Notes: generated by a model from the letters alone, not told the origin. Positions 53,740 through 60,055 are shown, counted from the first letter of the stretch. The stretch is 64,000 bases of DNA from Methanolobus sp. ZRKC5 (GCF_038446525.1 NZ_CP151792.1:1426001-1490000); one strand, 5' to 3'. A program made the numbers and translations.

Positions 53740-54129
53740 ATGGATAGCGTAAACCAGTACGGTTCACAATTCACAAATATATCTGACTTCCTAAAGGATG
53801 TCAAATATATAATATTGTTCTACGTACTTGGTGATTTCCTGACAACTGTCCAGGCCCTTAACTATGGATTTGAAGAAAATAATTTTCTGGCAGCAGTATT
53901 CCAGAGCTATGGAGTAGAATCCCTTCTTGTTCTGAAGGTCTTTTTCCTTGCAATAGTCTACTGGAACTACAGAATTCTGAAAGAGTCAGATTCCAGGTGG
54001 ACCGACCTGCTGTGGGTATTGTCCAGAAAAAGTATCTCAATTGTTGGCTTGTTCCTGGTGATGAACAACCTAATGGTCATTTTCATGGAATGCAGCGTGC
54101 TGCAGGTTATCCATACAATGACTTTTTAA
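53740..54129 (+). CDS. DUF5658-like small membrane protein, second copy
   Basis: 129 residues with three membrane helices. The motif YIILFYVLGDFLTTVQALNY (about 27) aligns with the paralogue at 5192-5488, and VLKVFFLAIVYWNYRIL with its second helix. A TATA box (TTATATATAG, about 53710-53718) lies 22-30 bases before the ATG, so the transcript is almost leaderless. The IS630 element begins 26 bases after the stop. Confidence 0.65.
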   Translation: MDSVNQYGSQFTNISDFLKDVKYIILFYVLGDFLTTVQALNYGFEENNFLAAVFQSYGVESLLVLKVFFLAIVYWNYRILKESDSRWTDLLWVLSRKSISIVGLFLVMNNLMVIFMECSVLQVIHTMTF

Positions 54130-54155
54130 CTCCCTCAAAAACGAAAAAACAATTA

Positions 54156-55230
54156 TAGTTGTTCACTTAATATTCATAACTTATTTTTCAGAAACTTATC
54201 AATCCATTTTCTTGCGAAACTAATCTTTGATGAACAACTAATAAACGTCTCAGCAATCAGATTTTTCATATGGTCAAGATCTTTCACAAAATTACAAGAA
54301 ATTATTCTTTTGACGCTCTTCCAGATGAATTCTATTGGATTCAAGTCTGGCGAATATGGAGGTAAATAGACCAATTCGATGTCATTTGCCTGTGCAAAAT
54401 CCAATGTATCTTTTGCTCGATGTGATCTAAAATTGTCGAGAATGATTACAATTCTTTTTCCTATGTTACTGTTTTTTACAGTTGACAGAAATGAACATAC
54501 ATCTTCTTTGGTTGAATGTTCCTTAAAATTTATAACTGAATTACCATTCAATGCATAAAACCCGAAGGAGTTTGCTTTTAGCCTGGTTGTGTTTTTGAAG
54601 ATAACAGGTTTATTGAAAGACCATAAACGAACTGTATTTGATGTTGTTTGTGGAGATGATTCATCAAGAAAGCCGATAACGCAACCATCATCGATTAATG
54701 GTAAGTTTTTTTTAAACGGTCTTCTGCGTCTTCTGGTCTTCGATGATCATGTGTATAGGGTTTGCCATGATGCATGCCAAACTTTTTCAAGATGACTAAT
54801 ATTTGCTTAATGGTGTATTGAACTTTAAACTCATTATATATGAGTTCCTGAACTGCTTTTGTTGACCAGTCATCACGCTCATGTAACATGGTCTTTAGTT
54901 TTTCTTTTTGGTCATTAGTGAGTTTTGAAGGGCAACCTCCTGAAAACCTGGGTTTCAAACCTTTATATCCGTCTTGATTCCACCGTTCTTGCCATTGATA
55001 TGCAACGGGTTTTGATATCCCTACAAGTTTAGCCGCTTCATTAACTGAAGCACCTTCATAACGGTGTTTAACAAAATACAAACGTTGTAGAACTCTTGTA
55101 TCTTTCTCTAACGACTTAATATGTTTAAGCAATTCCTCTAATGAAAGATGATGCTCTATCAGAATTTGTTCTGGTTTAGCCATGAAAAATAGTTGTATCT
55201 CTTAAGTAATAAATGTTTAGTTAATAACTA
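54156..55230 (-). mobile_element. Complete IS630-family element (1075 bp)
   Basis: Inverted ends TAGTTGTTCACTTAATATTC (left) and the similar TAGTTATTAACTAAACATTT read inward (right), bordered by the TA dinucleotide on both sides (54154-54155, 55231-55232), as IS630/Tc1-type elements require. It carries one transposase in two frames. It is nearly identical to the truncated copy at 24401-25427, so transposition is recent. Confidence 0.85.
54174..55183 (-). CDS. IS630 transposase (OrfA-OrfB, -1 frameshift)
   Basis: OrfA (54695-55183, 162 residues) has paired HTH domains (EAAKLVGISKPVAYQWQERW). Translation can shift -1 at eight consecutive A (T run 54706-54713), where DRLKK continues as NLPLIDDGCVIGFLDESS, giving a 336-residue product. 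The DDE residues are in FLDESS, IILDNFRSHRA and LNPIEFIWKS. The C-terminus is complete (WIDKFLKNKL). Confidence 0.85.
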
Positions 55231-55334
55231 TAATTCCACCATTTTTTTTCAACTAGACTGTTTTGGAAAAACTTGCAGTTAAAAATATCATTCTTGCAAG
55301 CAGTACAACTAAAGTAATCATCCCCCTGAAGAAA

Positions 55335-55442
55335 TCACCTGACGATAGCCGATAATAGAAAAACACTCGCCATCAGTGTTAGATATACGGATACCAGAAG
55401 TATTATCCTCAGCATCATAGAATCACCTTGCTTACTGAACAT
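55335..55442 (-). CDS. One-helix membrane peptide, family member 1 (35 aa)
   Basis: 35 residues: a polar N-terminus (MFSKQGDSMMLR) and one hydrophobic helix containing ILLVSVYLTLMASVFLL. A TATA-like TTTATAATA lies about 25 bases upstream. It aligns over its whole length with the members at 55567, 56186, 59336 and 59523, sharing the G-N/D-S, a basic residue before the helix and an invariant Tyr-Leu at mid-helix. Below the usual gene-calling length. No known family is recognised. Confidence 0.6.
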   Translation of the reverse strand: MFSKQGDSMMLRIILLVSVYLTLMASVFLLSAIVR

Positions 55443-55566
55443 GACACTCTTCAACAGAGACAATGTATTATAAATAATTGTTTAATTAATTCTGAATGTA
55501 TCAAAGTATACTAAAACAAAGGTCGTTTAACCTCACAAATTCTGATTTTGAAGAAAGGAAAAAGTG

Positions 55567-55674
55567 TCAATAACTTATTAGTTCCACCAATAATAAAAAG
55601 AAGGCCATCATTAAAAGATATGCGAGAGCAACAAATACTAAATTTATTGTACTGCATCTGCAATACTCATTCAT
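55567..55674 (-). CDS. One-helix membrane peptide, family member 2 (35 aa)
   Basis: 35 residues: MNEYCRCSTIN followed by a helix with LVFVALAYLLMMAFFLLLVE. Length is identical to members 1, 3 and 5. The bases around its start (GTACATATGAAT) are the same as in member 5, so the similarity extends into the leader and supports the chosen ATG. Function unknown. Confidence 0.6.
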   Translation of the reverse strand: MNEYCRCSTINLVFVALAYLLMMAFFLLLVELISY

Positions 55675-55793
55675 ATGTACTTATTAAAAAGATAACAAGC
55701 ATCGTTACATATCAATAAAAAAAACATTTTTCCTAATTAATAGTACCCAAGTGTTAAATAGAAATATGGAAATGAAGAGGAGGCATTAGAAAC

Positions 55794-56024
55794 ATGCAAC
55801 AAAAATCAGGAGATAAAAATATGATATGGGCCTTTTCAGCACTCAAAGAGGAAGAAGTAAAATCCATCAAAGAACTGGAAGATAAAATGAATGTGACTTT
55901 ACTGTCATTTTCAGGAATTGATATTAGTAATGCAGAACTTAGTAAGAGTGACCTGGAAGAAATCCAAACGCTTGAAGAGAAGCTGGGTCGTTCTTTGGTA
56001 GCAGTTAAAGTAAAGTCAGAATGA
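55794..56024 (+). CDS. Small acidic protein, 76 aa, unknown
   Basis: Begins MQQKSGDKNMIWAFSALKEE. The later part is two charged helices (SIKELEDKMNVTLLSFSG; LSKSDLEEIQTLEEKLGRSL) of similar pattern, possibly an internal duplication. A strong ribosome site GAGGAGG precedes the ATG by 10 bases. It is the only plus-strand gene among the one-helix peptides. No family recognised. Confidence 0.6.
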   Translation: MQQKSGDKNMIWAFSALKEEEVKSIKELEDKMNVTLLSFSGIDISNAELSKSDLEEIQTLEEKLGRSLVAVKVKSE

Positions 56025-56185
56025 CTTTTTATTTTTCCTTTTATTTTTTACGGCTGATCTGTAAAAACAGCTTTTAAGCATACATATAGTGTTACTCCTA
56101 AGATCCAACAGGTATTTCCTTGCAATATCGAATAAGAGTCACCAAAAAATAAACAAATAGCAGCAGCTAGAAAAAGTAATTAGTC

Positions 56186-56293
56186 TCAAACACTGGAAAA
56201 AACCGAAAATAGAGCCACAATCGAAAGCAGCATGAGGTAGACAAGTGCAACTATCATCACTTTAAAAAGATTAGAGTTAGCCGAATCATCTAT
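56186..56293 (-). CDS. One-helix membrane peptide, family member 3 (35 aa if started at ATA)
   Basis: The helix VMIVALVYLMLLSIVALFSV follows DDSANSNLFK. Started at ATA (56291-56293) it is 35 residues, exactly the length of members 1, 2 and 5, and its ANSN aligns with their GNSN. No ATG/GTG/TTG occurs there. The only canonical starts, GTG/ATG within the helix, leave 23-24 residues. Either the gene uses ATA or its start has mutated. Confidence 0.5.
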   Translation of the reverse strand: MDDSANSNLFKVMIVALVYLMLLSIVALFSVFSSV

Positions 56294-56377
56294 ATTGTAT
56301 CAATTAAAGTACATATTATCTTTGCATAAAAACTAATCAAGTTTCATTATTTATTCATAGAGTTGAATAGAAGATTA

Positions 56378-56488
56378 CTAATAAAAACCAAAAATGCAAA
56401 TTACTTGTTTATAAATAAAAAAAGAAATTAACCTTAATTTACACAATAAAATTATCGCAAAAGCAATGAACAATTCCTGGTTATTCAT
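56378..56488 (-). CDS. Possible hydrophobic peptide, 36 aa
   Basis: MNNQELFIAFAIILLCKLR and a second hydrophobic/aromatic half. It lies between member 3 and the zinc-ribbon gene on the same strand and starts with MNN like member 5, but lacks the Tyr-Leu. It may be a decayed relative or chance. Confidence 0.25.
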   Translation of the reverse strand: MNNQELFIAFAIILLCKLRLISFFIYKQVICIFGFY

Positions 56489-56523
56489 ACATATACGAAC
56501 TTCTGCCTCATGTTGCACGATTC

Positions 56524-56688
56524 TTATTTTGCTACTTCTTTTTCTTCAACCGTATCAAGCTCCAAGATGGATTTAAGGTCTGTTACACAATTAAGACATA
56601 CCAGATTTCTACCAATTCTGTGAAGATGTCCAGTTTCTATCGCATCACGCCCGATAGAATTACCACAGAAAAAACAGTCATAGAACAT
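56524..56688 (-). CDS. Small zinc-ribbon protein, 54 aa
   Basis: MFYDCFFCGNSIGRDAIETG, then HLHRIGRNLVCLNCVTDLK and an acidic helical tail. Two CxxC pairs (residues 5/8 and 31/34) form a likely zinc ribbon. Such proteins bind nucleic acid or act as adaptor subunits. It sits between two clusters of one-helix peptides on the same strand. No clear ribosome site. Conserved Cys spacing is the main evidence. Confidence 0.6.
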   Translation of the reverse strand: MFYDCFFCGNSIGRDAIETGHLHRIGRNLVCLNCVTDLKSILELDTVEEKEVAK

Positions 56689-56807
56689 GATGTCAAATCA
56701 ATGTCTAAATATATAAAAGTTACTTAGTAAATAATAATGTTACACTTTTGAAATGATGCCCATTGCTCACTCCGCAAAAAGCAAGTACAAGCATCAGAAC
56801 ATACAAC

Positions 56808-56963
56808 ATGATTAAAGTAGCCAGGAAATACGACAAGGTATCAAAAATCGATGAATACAGCCTGAACCCAGTCCTTAAATGTGATATCGTCTACATGAAC
56901 AAAATTAACTCCAGACGCAATGAACACAAGATCCAGATAAAGATCTACCAGAAAACCTTCTGA
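56808..56963 (+). CDS. Hypothetical protein or fragment
   Basis: 51 residues from ATG 56808 (MIKVARKYDKVSKIDEYSLN). The frame is open upstream to 56763. Basic, alpha/beta, ending KIQIKIYQKTF. It is followed closely by another small frame and the integrase remnant, so it is probably debris of an integrated element. No family recognised. Confidence 0.4.
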   Translation: MIKVARKYDKVSKIDEYSLNPVLKCDIVYMNKINSRRNEHKIQIKIYQKTF

Positions 56964-56997
56964 CTCTGCAGGATAGAATTCACCATATCCTCAAACG

Positions 56998-57291
56998 ATG
57001 CAAAAGGTTATCTTCAACTTCAAACACACCGACCACGACATAGCAACGAACCTAATACTATTCTGCCACCACGGCCTGAAAGAAAACGGACTCCAAATAG
57101 ACCGCTACGACAGATTCCTGGACGACGTTATAAAGTTCGTTTCAAAAGCCTTCAAAGAATCCGAGGACCTGATCTACTCCCTCCGCCAATGCGACATCTT
57201 CGAAGCCGGCCAGGCTAACAAATCTGTAAGGCAAAGACTGGTATTAGAAGGAGAGAACTCACAACCCTTGATATCAACGATGTGTCAATGA
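56998..57291 (+). CDS. Hypothetical protein, 3' end fused to integrase sequence out of frame
   Basis: 97 residues. Residues 1-74 (MQKVIFNFKHTDHDIATNLI ... FEAGQANK) look like a genuine helical protein. The rest translates the integrase region in the wrong frame (EGENSQPLI), so the original C-terminus was lost at a junction near 57220. Function unknown. Confidence 0.4.
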   Translation: MQKVIFNFKHTDHDIATNLILFCHHGLKENGLQIDRYDRFLDDVIKFVSKAFKESEDLIYSLRQCDIFEAGQANKSVRQRLVLEGENSQPLISTMCQ

Positions 57292-57559
57292 TAAATAACT
57301 CAGTCCTGCTTAAACCAACCGGAAAGAGATCCAACCGCCTAATCTATTTTGATGATGAATGCAAAGCCTTCCTGGAAGAATACCTGAAAACCCGGACAGA
57401 TGACAACCCGGCTCTTTTCCTCTCATCTGCAGGCTCAAGAATAACACGAAGCACAGTCTATAGGATAGTAACAAATTATGCTGGTAAGTTTGGCATACAC
57501 GATCCTAAAGGTCATGTTCACGAAAAATTCACGCCTCATTGCTGCCGTTTATGGTACAC

Positions 57560-59162
57560 CCCAAGTTTGACAGTTTCCACTCTTTCCTGAAGAGAATGTC
57601 TTCTCTTTCAACCCAAATGTTTCCATTTTTAGTCAGGAAAACCTATTTGACAGTCCAAACAATTTCAGGCAAACTACTACGATTTCACCCATTTTTTCCT
57701 TAGAATCAGTGAATTTATGCCATCAAAGTTGGCGTAAATGTACTTTTTTGACCTATTTCCCTTGAAATCCACAGTCACTGTCAAATTCAATAAGCTATTT
57801 TTTATGAATTTTGTGGACTTATGCTTGAGTTCATTGAACTCATATCGCATCAGCGATATGAAAAGTTGTGCAATGAATCCAATAATCACCGCACCATAAA
57901 TGCTAGCATCTGTCCATACTCGTAATGGTTTAATCTCAATCTCATTCTTCAGCGAATGAATAATTTTTTCGATGCTGTCCTTTTTTCGATATTTTTGAAG
58001 AGCTTGATTTAGTGTCAAATTCTCACTCGACCTTAAGCAGAAAAATCCTTCTCTACCTGTAACTAGCTTTTCTTCCAGCAGTTCGATAGCACCCTGTTCA
58101 TTAATTTGCATCAATTTTGTCTGTAGGGAATAACTAACATCAACAAGGGCATTGTTAATTCTGAACCTTTTAGGAAGTTTCTTGTTCTTATCAATGGATT
58201 CTTGTATGGCCTTTGCTTCCTGCAACTGCCTCATAACCTTTCTAGCTTTAGAATCAAGTTGCTCCTTTTGGAGCTTCTTAGAAAAATACATGTAATTGAA
58301 ACTGTTTGGTTTAATGTTCTTCAAGCCATATATTCCGGCTTCCTCATCAACTGCCTCAATAGATGAATCCCAGAATGCAGCTATCTTCTTATCGTCGCTT
58401 GTATTGAGTTTCCTTGCAGTCAGGTAATGCATCTCATCTGCCCTTATCATAGTAGTGTTCCCTATGCTATGAGCTCCTTTATCGAAAATAACAAGAGATT
58501 CCTGCTTCAATCTTCCATGGACCTGTTGATACGTTTTCCTGAAGTGTTTCTGATCATTCAAATTACCCTGTTCCACTGTTATGCCAATTGGTATATTGAT
58601 CGGGTCTGCAAGTTCACTAATTCCCAATGTGATCTGTTTCTTATCAGGTCTATGGTCACGACTGTAACCATATTTACCTAATGGCGATTTATCGCCATGC
58701 AGGACAATACTGGTCCAGTCCATGTTGATATTGGTATGTTCGAAATCATACCTAGCAAATAGTCTGTCCTGAATATCGGAAATAATCGTTTCACGATTAT
58801 TTCCCAAGGTTTCAAGAAGCCTGTACAGTGTTCTCTCACTGAATTCAGGCAGGTTAAAAATGTCAAGCACTTCATCACGATTTATCCAATCATGAGCTTT
58901 GCTTATGCTGAAATTATCTGTAAGCTTGTAGCTTACAAGAGCTTTCAGCAAATTATTGAGGTTGATACCATGCTTTTTATGTTTGCTGAAAACAGTAGGA
59001 AGGTCAAGGATATCGTAGAGTTGGTTTACAGCTAGGATTGTTCCTATGGGAAAGTATATATTCTTGTTAGGAATAATGTCGTATGTTCTTAGTTGTGATT
59101 GCATTTTTTGTCGAATACAACATTACTAAGAACACTTTATTACTTTTGACTGTCAAACTTGG
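57560..59162 (-). mobile_element. IS1634-like (IS4 superfamily) insertion sequence, 1603 bp
   Basis: Inverted ends CCCAAGTTTGACAGT / ACTGTCAAACTTGGG are perfect over 15 bp. It is flanked by a 6-bp direct repeat GTACAC (57554-57559, 59163-59168), within the range of this family. It encodes one long transposase. Confidence 0.9.
57677..59104 (-). CDS. IS1634-family DDE transposase
   Basis: 475 residues, apparently intact. NINMDWTSIVLHGDKSPLGK (about 127, first Asp), RLKQESLVIFDKGAHS (about 206, second Asp) and YRKKDSIEKIIHSLKNEIEI (about 388) with the Y-x(2)-R-x(3)-E-x(6)-K-like C1 region identify IS4-type transposases, although the final acidic residue should be confirmed by alignment. Confidence 0.85.
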   Translation of the reverse strand: MQSQLRTYDIIPNKNIYFPIGTILAVNQLYDILDLPTVFSKHKKHGINLNNLLKALVSYKLTDNFSISKAHDWINRDEVLDIFNLPEFSERTLYRLLETLGNNRETIISDIQDRLFARYDFEHTNINMDWTSIVLHGDKSPLGKYGYSRDHRPDKKQITLGISELADPINIPIGITVEQGNLNDQKHFRKTYQQVHGRLKQESLVIFDKGAHSIGNTTMIRADEMHYLTARKLNTSDDKKIAAFWDSSIEAVDEEAGIYGLKNIKPNSFNYMYFSKKLQKEQLDSKARKVMRQLQEAKAIQESIDKNKKLPKRFRINNALVDVSYSLQTKLMQINEQGAIELLEEKLVTGREGFFCLRSSENLTLNQALQKYRKKDSIEKIIHSLKNEIEIKPLRVWTDASIYGAVIIGFIAQLFISLMRYEFNELKHKSTKFIKNSLLNLTVTVDFKGNRSKKYIYANFDGINSLILRKKWVKS

Positions 59163-59335
59163 GGTACACCATTCACCTAAGAAGATCAAGAATGTCAAAA
59201 GATTTTATCAAGGAACTTCGAGGAGACACCAGAGACAAAGCAATAGACATCTACGACCAGATAAGAGCAGATGAACTAAAAGTTGCCTACATGAAGCATA
59301 TACCATAATTGAGAGTTAATCCAAAGAATATTAAT

Positions 59336-59464
59336 TCACTGAATACCTGGAAAAAACCAATCGAGTAAAACGAATGCAAGCATAGTAAAAAGATAAACAG
59401 ATACAAATAAGACGATTTGTTGTATCTTCAAGTTGCCTTTTGTTATAAGGAGTTCCACAAACAT
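59336..59464 (-). CDS. One-helix membrane peptide, family member 4 (42 aa)
   Basis: MFVELLITKGNLKIQQ then a helix with IVLFVSVYLFTMLAFVLLDW, ending FFPGIQ. It aligns with the other members through GN-x-x-I, IVL and VSVYL. The N-terminus is longer by 5 residues; a GTG start at 59458 would shorten it. A TATA-like TTTTATACATG lies upstream. Confidence 0.6.
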   Translation of the reverse strand: MFVELLITKGNLKIQQIVLFVSVYLFTMLAFVLLDWFFPGIQ

Positions 59465-59522
59465 AGTGTATCAAATACATGTATAAAACATTATGGAAAT
59501 TTTTCTTCTTGAATACTGCTAT

Positions 59523-59630
59523 TCATACACCCATTAATCCTGCAGCTAATACAATTGCAAGTATCATTACAAGGTAAACAGACAACATTAAAACTATTTT
59601 AGTTATGTTTGAGTTGCCGCAATTATTCAT
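59523..59630 (-). CDS. One-helix membrane peptide, family member 5 (35 aa)
   Basis: MNNCGNSNITKIVLMLSVYL, then VMILAIVLAAGLMGV. Exactly 35 residues. GTGGT lies upstream of the ATG and a TATA box (CTTATTTATACAG) further up. It is the best-conserved member, sharing LSVYL with members 1 and 4 and the leader GTACATATGAAT with member 2. Confidence 0.65.
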   Translation of the reverse strand: MNNCGNSNITKIVLMLSVYLVMILAIVLAAGLMGV

Positions 59631-59772
59631 ATGTACCACATGTAAAAGTAACAACACACTGTATAAATAAGTATTCCAAATACAATATTTATTAAAACTG
59701 TTAAATTTAAAGCCGTGTATATAAATAGATGAAAGAAAAAACTTTTGGATTAGTTTAAAAAATGAAAAGAAA

Positions 59773-59787: not shown

Positions 59788-59800
59788 ATTTAGCTGATTA

Positions 59801-59873
59801 CGCCCGAACCGGGATTCGAACCCGGGTCGGAGCCTCGACAGGGCTCCATGATAGGCCTCTACACTATTCGGAC
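59801..59873 (-). tRNA. tRNA-Asp (anticodon GTC)
   Basis: Minus-strand cloverleaf: acceptor GTCCGAA/TTCGGGC, anticodon loop CTGTCGA in stem GAGCC/GGCTC, T-arm CCGGG-TTCGAAT-CCCGG. CCA is not encoded. It is 75 bases downstream of tRNA-Tyr and probably in the same transcript. Confidence 0.9.
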
Positions 59874-59947
59874 ATTTTGCAAGTTTTCGCTTGTGAGCAC
59901 CCCTAAAAGGTGGCTCTTATATTTAAGGCTTTTGTTGATTTTGTAAG

Positions 59948-60055
59948 TCCCGCCTCCCAGACTCGAACCGGGGACATCGCGGTGCCTGCGCGTAATGTGA
60001 TCATGTCACATGAATCAAACTACAGCCGCGCACTCTACCACTGAGTTAAGGCGGG
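59948..60055 (-). tRNA. tRNA-Tyr (anticodon GTA) with 36-nt intron
   Basis: Acceptor CCCGCCT/AGGCGGG, D-stem ACTC/GAGT, anticodon stem CGCGG/CCGCG and T-arm CCCGG-TTCGAGT-CTGGG are all paired. The anticodon loop CTGTAG is interrupted after position 37 by about 36 bases, then resumes with A38. This is the canonical archaeal intron position. CCA is not encoded. Confidence 0.85.

Follow-up and report, generated by a model that had tools for sequence, protein, structure and literature searches.

Five short minus-strand genes and their state of preservation

We analysed five short genes on the minus strand of a 64,000-nucleotide (nt) stretch of Methanolobus sp. ZRKC5 DNA (GCF_038446525.1, NZ_CP151792.1:1426001-1490000; this whole stretch is called the window, and positions are counted from its first letter), together with the family of small membrane peptides to which they belong. 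An earlier reading made from the DNA alone (the sequence-only reading) had placed frames at 55335-55442, 55567-55674, 56186-56293, 59336-59464 and 59523-59630. All five were present there and translated as claimed, into peptides of 35, 35, 35 (with ATA as first codon), 42 and 35 residues, here termed P1 to P5.

P1 (55335..55442, minus strand; 35 amino acids [aa], MFSKQGDSMMLRIILLVSVYLTLMASVFLLSAIVR) belongs to orthologue group A, and 13 other Methanolobus genomes carry its orthologue at the corresponding chromosomal position. Its closest orthologue, L040 in genome G003, differs from it with a nonsynonymous proportion (pN) of 0.20 and a synonymous proportion (pS) of 0.43. A TATA box, TATTTATA, lies at 55469..55476 (minus strand), about 27 to 34 nt before the ATG. 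P5 (59523..59639, minus strand; MNNCGNSNITKIVLMLSVYLVMILAIVLAAGLMGV) measures 35 aa from the ATG at 59630 or 38 aa from an in-frame GTG at 59639; the GTG is the probable, leaderless start, and a TATA box, again TATTTATA, lies at 59662..59669 (minus strand), about 22 to 30 nt before it. With good promoters and starts, P1 and P5 look intact. The frame of P2 (55567..55674, minus strand; 35 aa, MNEYCRCSTINLVFVALAYLLMMAFFLLLVELISY) is also intact (pN 0.15 and pS 0.46 against its orthologue in G003, L040:9905-10018), and a TAA stands at the third codon before its ATG, where relatives have their start; no clear TATA box was found ahead of it. P3 (56186..56293, minus strand; IDDSANSNLFKVMIVALVYLMLLSIVALFSVFSSV) has no usable start and is probably a decaying copy, since ATA stands where its relatives, intact in L045 and L046, have ATG, and the upstream start does not lie in frame. 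P4 (59336..59464, minus strand; 42 aa, MFVELLITKGNLKIQQIVLFVSVYLFTMLAFVLLDWFFPGIQ) is preceded by a TATA-like box (TTTTATAC; 59481..59488, minus strand). It is divergent and the weakest member, matching a profile made without it only in part (E value 0.0155) and forming the longest branch in the tree of members.

The peptides form a family in two genera

A profile built from the five peptides recovered, in the window's own genome, the five themselves and a sixth place, and it found homologues in most genomes of the genus. The likeness is thus beyond chance, as the sequence-only reading had argued, with E values down to 1.5e-13 in other Methanolobus genomes. Confinement to one island, which it had also proposed, did not hold, for two more members lie elsewhere in the same genome (G000:C1:97677 and G000:C1:201557). 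Profiles of 37 members (A2) and of 32 diverse members (A4) were then searched over genus, family and class. At class level (238 genomes, E 0.005), 95 matches were obtained in 26 genomes, comprising 20 of 27 Methanolobus genomes, with two to eight members each, and all 6 Methanomethylovorans genomes, with one or two. No convincing member was found in the remaining genomes of the class; the two matches outside both genera, which fall within open frames of 459 and 497 residues, look like chance. A control made by reversing the same 37 sequences, with composition and hydrophobicity kept, gave two partial matches (E 0.011 and 0.037) in 27 genomes, compared with well over 70 matches for the forward profile.

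No member reached the cut-off of any Pfam or NCBIfam model, KdpF and FixQ/CcoQ models included, and none matched a solved structure in the PDB. PHROGs yielded nothing convincing (best E 0.0059, to an unnamed family). The members tried against phages and plasmids, one of them against phages, had no match, and the suggested analogy with phage holins gained no support. As judged by these searches, this is a previously unnamed family, with peptides of 35 to 40 residues, of Methanolobus and Methanomethylovorans only, outside the searched Pfam, NCBIfam, PHROG and PDB collections.

Substitution patterns identify coding genes

The sequence-only reading had proposed a profile search and a codon-substitution test, and had held that a lack of frame-preserving orthologues or of coding constraint would tell against a real family. 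Both analyses were run, and orthologues with preserved frame were found across Methanolobus. Within six orthologue groups defined by sequence motif (A, B, C, D, E and F), pN/pS was 0.44, 0.30, 0.17, 0.27, 0.48 and 0.22, respectively, a range (0.17 to 0.48) that reveals coding constraint; third codon positions accounted for over half of the differences in groups B, C, D and F. Other frames mostly contained stops and gave values near or above 1, except for the mirror frame that shares third positions. Along the DNA of these groups, conservation was high over promoter and open reading frame (ORF) and dropped at the stop codon; group B has an extra conserved patch about 70 to 130 nt past the stop, near the end of the neighbouring gene. 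In the predicted frame, purifying selection acts on the orthologue groups; the genes are genuine and coding.

These data bear on the view that what is conserved is a regulatory RNA, the frame being incidental. In its favour, short intergenic transcripts of Methanolobus psychrophilus have been classed as small RNAs (sRNAs) (PMC5378194). The third-position excess and low pN/pS are, however, limited to the predicted frame and its mirror, and fixed length and a central Tyr are kept across paralogues despite little DNA similarity. The substitution pattern largely refutes this view, which we find hardly credible. Genome G026, taken to be M. psychrophilus R15, holds only three clear members (G026:C1:504204, 1510344 and 1914627). 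On that count, the family is not the set of nine sRNAs that M. psychrophilus induces in the cold (PMC5378194).

Peptide anatomy

In the alignment of the five window peptides, a Tyr-Leu pair and one later Leu are invariant. Across the family, the mid-helix Tyr of this pair is nearly so (85 of 87 members), but the Leu that follows it is Leu in only 46 of 87; likewise, the I-V-L-x-x-S-V motif noted earlier occurs in some members but is not shared by the wider family. A Lys or Arg stands ahead of the helix in 79 of the 87, and Ala/Ser and Gly/Ala prevail at two positions near the C-terminal end. Kyte-Doolittle hydropathy peaked at a median of 2.78. AlphaFold2, run on member P0005 with 13 relatives, predicted one helix over residues 6 to 32 (mean predicted local distance difference test score, 86). 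Together with the profile matches and low pN/pS, this model bears out the description of a real coding family of one-helix membrane peptides. The 12 N-terminal residues hold 159 basic and 59 acidic residues, and under the positive-inside rule the basic-rich end stays inside; this excess suggests a topology with the N terminus in and the C terminus out.

The members come in tandem sets of alike short peptides with a Met start and no signal peptide, as would suit exported peptides, either leaderless bacteriocin-like products (archaeocins) or signals. Here, though, the product is a strongly hydrophobic single-span helix and not a cationic amphipathic peptide, and no exporter or immunity gene recurs beside members; we consider such a role highly improbable.

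Promoters and start sites

Of 85 members, 41 had a TATA-like box between -48 and -24; 200 shuffles gave 12 on average and 21 at most. Groups B, C and D and several singletons have in common a start region, (A/G)TG-GTA-CAT/CGT-ATG-AA. The leader GTACATATGAAT, noticed earlier as shared by two window peptides, belongs to this genus-wide region, in the form (A/G)TG-GTA-CAT-ATG-AA. Because TATA boxes of M. psychrophilus lie about 19 to 22 nt ahead of the transcriptional start site (PMC5378194), transcription of groups B, C and D and of several singletons probably sets in at the first start codon or right beside it, which would make the transcripts leaderless. In many members, translation probably starts at the upstream ATG or GTG; a group B gene in L049, in which the second ATG is ATA and the first is intact, supports this choice. 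In group A the leader is only a few bases long (GACTGTT-ATG); group F carries a ribosome-binding-like motif, GAGGT. A strongly conserved block lies upstream of the TATA box in group C (92-95% identity at -65 to -36), and a conserved block lies around and upstream of it in group F, which suggests regulated transcription. Each gene appears to be transcribed on its own, from its own TATA box, and to start with no leader or a short one.

This arrangement weighs on the sequence-only reading's analogy with type I toxins, by which the peptides would be membrane-damaging and silenced by antisense RNA. The members are indeed short, hydrophobic, one-helix peptides; their size, single helix and tandem multicopy layout resemble those of Ldr, Ibs and Fst, and one window copy has decayed. 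Promoters, however, lie about 30 to 40 nt ahead of the start (TATA box 24 to 48 nt before it) and therefore leave no room for the long structured 5' leader of such toxins. Antisense TATA boxes within 150 nt downstream were not enriched (22 of 84 members compared with 31 in shuffles), a test whose reach does not extend to trans-encoded antisense RNA or to antisense RNA arising within the ORF. Apart from the group B patch, nothing is conserved past the stop; groups C and F, with the lowest pN/pS values, are highly conserved and orthologous across species, and the members tried have no phage or plasmid match. With leader, antisense signal and mobility missing, the toxin model is less likely; the analogy is weakened and looks quite improbable.

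Genomic places, history and neighbours

A tree of 85 members (35 columns) was poorly resolved at depth, yet support was good for groups A, C, D and F, each of which spans species. By this topology, the paralogues arose before the species did, and recent transposition did not spread them.

The window genes are flanked on their upstream side by tRNA-Asp (GTC; 59800..59874, minus strand) and on the other by c0, a gene for a 129-aa membrane protein related to DUF5658 (53740..54129, plus strand) that is convergent with them. Most Methanolobus genomes have one to three members between the tRNA-Asp/metK side and c0, and c0 likewise has a member next to it in two genomes of Methanomethylovorans (G092 and G093), with a different gene on the other side. 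An obligate partnership with c0 was rejected; c0 and the neighbouring M24 peptidase gene occur without peptides in several genomes, and c0 is therefore a flank and not a required partner. Beside tRNA-Asp, a sequence resembling an intron-containing tRNA, possibly tRNA-Tyr, was noticed by eye at about 59949-60055 (minus strand); ARAGORN and Rfam did not report it, and Rfam gave only tRNA for the region. Two further genes lie between the peptide genes, both below the Pfam cut-off: one for a 76-aa charged protein (55794-56024, plus strand) and one for a 54-aa, zinc-ribbon-like protein with two CxxC pairs (56524-56688, minus strand).

Mobile genes are also interspersed. An insertion sequence (IS) element at 57551-59172, with 24-bp inverted ends (57551-57574 and 59149-59172) and a 475-aa ORF at 57677-59104, splits a tyrosine integrase gene (Pfam Phage_integrase; 57282-57590 and 59180-59308, plus strand). 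A second element, at 54151-55235, has 33-bp imperfect inverted ends and two minus-strand ORFs, 54695-55183 (transposase-type helix-turn-helix domains) and 54174-54551, which together resemble an IS630-type transposase in two frames. In most relatives, the peptide genes are not accompanied by integrase or IS genes, which makes the mobile genes look like later arrivals. An integration island at tRNA-Asp was likewise rejected, as no further copy of the 3' end of this tRNA was found in the window.

The other groups have other neighbours, each old paralogue group being kept at a fixed chromosomal place of its own. Group E lies near genes for a mechanosensitive channel and a potassium-type channel. 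Group F (L108, L110-L118 and L127) lies among rubrerythrin, mechanosensitive-channel-like and small membrane protein genes, a neighbourhood that hints at stress. Group D adjoins CbbQ/NorQ-like and VWA genes and, in some genomes, also a fused cbb3-type oxidase or P-type ATPase gene. This oxidase, carried by several Methanolobus genomes (COX1, FixO and cytochrome c domains; L063:5636-8509, L069 and L071), lies near the CbbQ/NorQ and VWA genes with the group D peptide beside it; a cbb3-type oxidase is unexpected in strict anaerobes. Only some group D loci have an oxidase gene within reach, and G024 and others have none; linkage to the oxidase is therefore not constant, which tells against group D as its accessory subunit.

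The same loci bear on a broader alternative, in which the peptides are constitutive structural subunits of a methanophenazine-linked or oxidase-like membrane complex, with paralogues serving complex isoforms. Tiny single-span subunits such as KdpF, CydX and CcoM are common in such complexes; the near-invariant intramembrane Tyr and the adjacency of group D to fused CcoN/CcoO oxidase genes in some genomes would fit. Yet the peptide genes stand alone with their own promoters and not in operons, group D also occurs away from any oxidase gene, the FixQ/CcoQ and KdpF models are unmatched, and occurrence within the genus is patchy. On balance, we think this alternative unlikely, if worth keeping in sight.

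A proposed role as membrane microproteins

The explanation we favour, at about even chances, is that these are condition-specific single-span microproteins, oriented with the N terminus in and the C terminus out, which bind and modulate membrane complexes. In its favour stand the purifying selection in all six groups, the near-invariant Tyr with the conserved basic and small residues, the single predicted helix with its basic N-terminal excess, the individual TATA boxes, the upstream blocks of groups C and F, the old paralogue groups at their own places, the oxidase and ATPase genes beside group D, and the precedent of MtrI and MtrR. Among the functions suggested by the sequence-only reading, that of accessory peptides to membrane complexes remains the best. 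The product has a short polar N terminus ending in a basic residue, followed by one predicted helix with Tyr at mid-membrane and Ala/Ser and Gly/Ala near its outer end. It would insert with the N terminus inside, and its helix would pack, via the Tyr and the small-residue region, on a helix of a larger membrane protein or on itself. Different paralogues would be made under different conditions, and the set would thereby tune an energy-conserving or transport complex, in a manner akin to the small-protein regulators of Mtr in Methanosarcina mazei or to the subunits with one membrane span that bacterial oxidases and P-type ATPases possess. More tentatively, and as a possibility well short of likely, the up to eight paralogues per genome could be interchangeable regulators of one membrane complex of methylotrophic methanogenesis, recognized via the mid-membrane Tyr.

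Several results weigh against the proposed modulation of membrane complexes. Neighbour genes vary between paralogue groups, and no partner was identified among them. A helix-periodicity test for a single conserved face was not significant (P = 0.17), and such a face was rejected. Seven Methanolobus genomes have no detectable members, and the function may therefore be dispensable, but these genomes may instead hold divergent members.

About 95 short genes in 26 genomes thus make up one coherent family outside all searched protein-family libraries. This suggests that conserved archaeal genes this small are easily overlooked, and some may have been counted as noncoding RNAs in earlier transcript studies. 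A key methanogenesis enzyme of Methanosarcina is now recognized to be steered by small proteins; if the reading of a multiparalogue set with individual promoters is true, a switchable microprotein kit becomes directly testable in Methanolobus and Methanomethylovorans.

Comparison with known systems

The known toxins Ldr, Ibs and Fst are alike in length (about 20 to 40 aa), in having one hydrophobic helix and in their often tandem copies, but they use antisense RNAs and leaders, whereas in the present genes the promoter directly adjoins the start and no sign of an antisense promoter was seen. KdpF, CydX and FixQ/CcoQ-type subunits share one transmembrane helix and a length of about 30 to 50 aa, and group D lies near oxidase or P-type ATPase genes; unlike these subunits, the peptides have no profile match, lie outside those operons and occur as many paralogues per genome. 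The small protein sORF_05 of M. mazei, encoded in a dimethylamine operon by a permease gene (PMC11456600), is, compared by description only, likewise a hydrophobic, helical, membrane-associated methanogen microprotein; it differs in its operon setting and is not described as a multicopy family. MtrI (68 aa) and MtrR (49 aa) bind the Mtr complex of M. mazei, where MtrI bridges MtrA and MtrCDE through a Cys ligand and MtrR is stated to lack a transmembrane domain (PMC12774963 and PMC13370731). These two are larger and are not described as multicopy families, but, again by description only, they resemble the peptides in belonging to the same archaeal family, in their stand-alone small-protein genes, in their narrow taxonomic range and in acting on a membrane energy complex.

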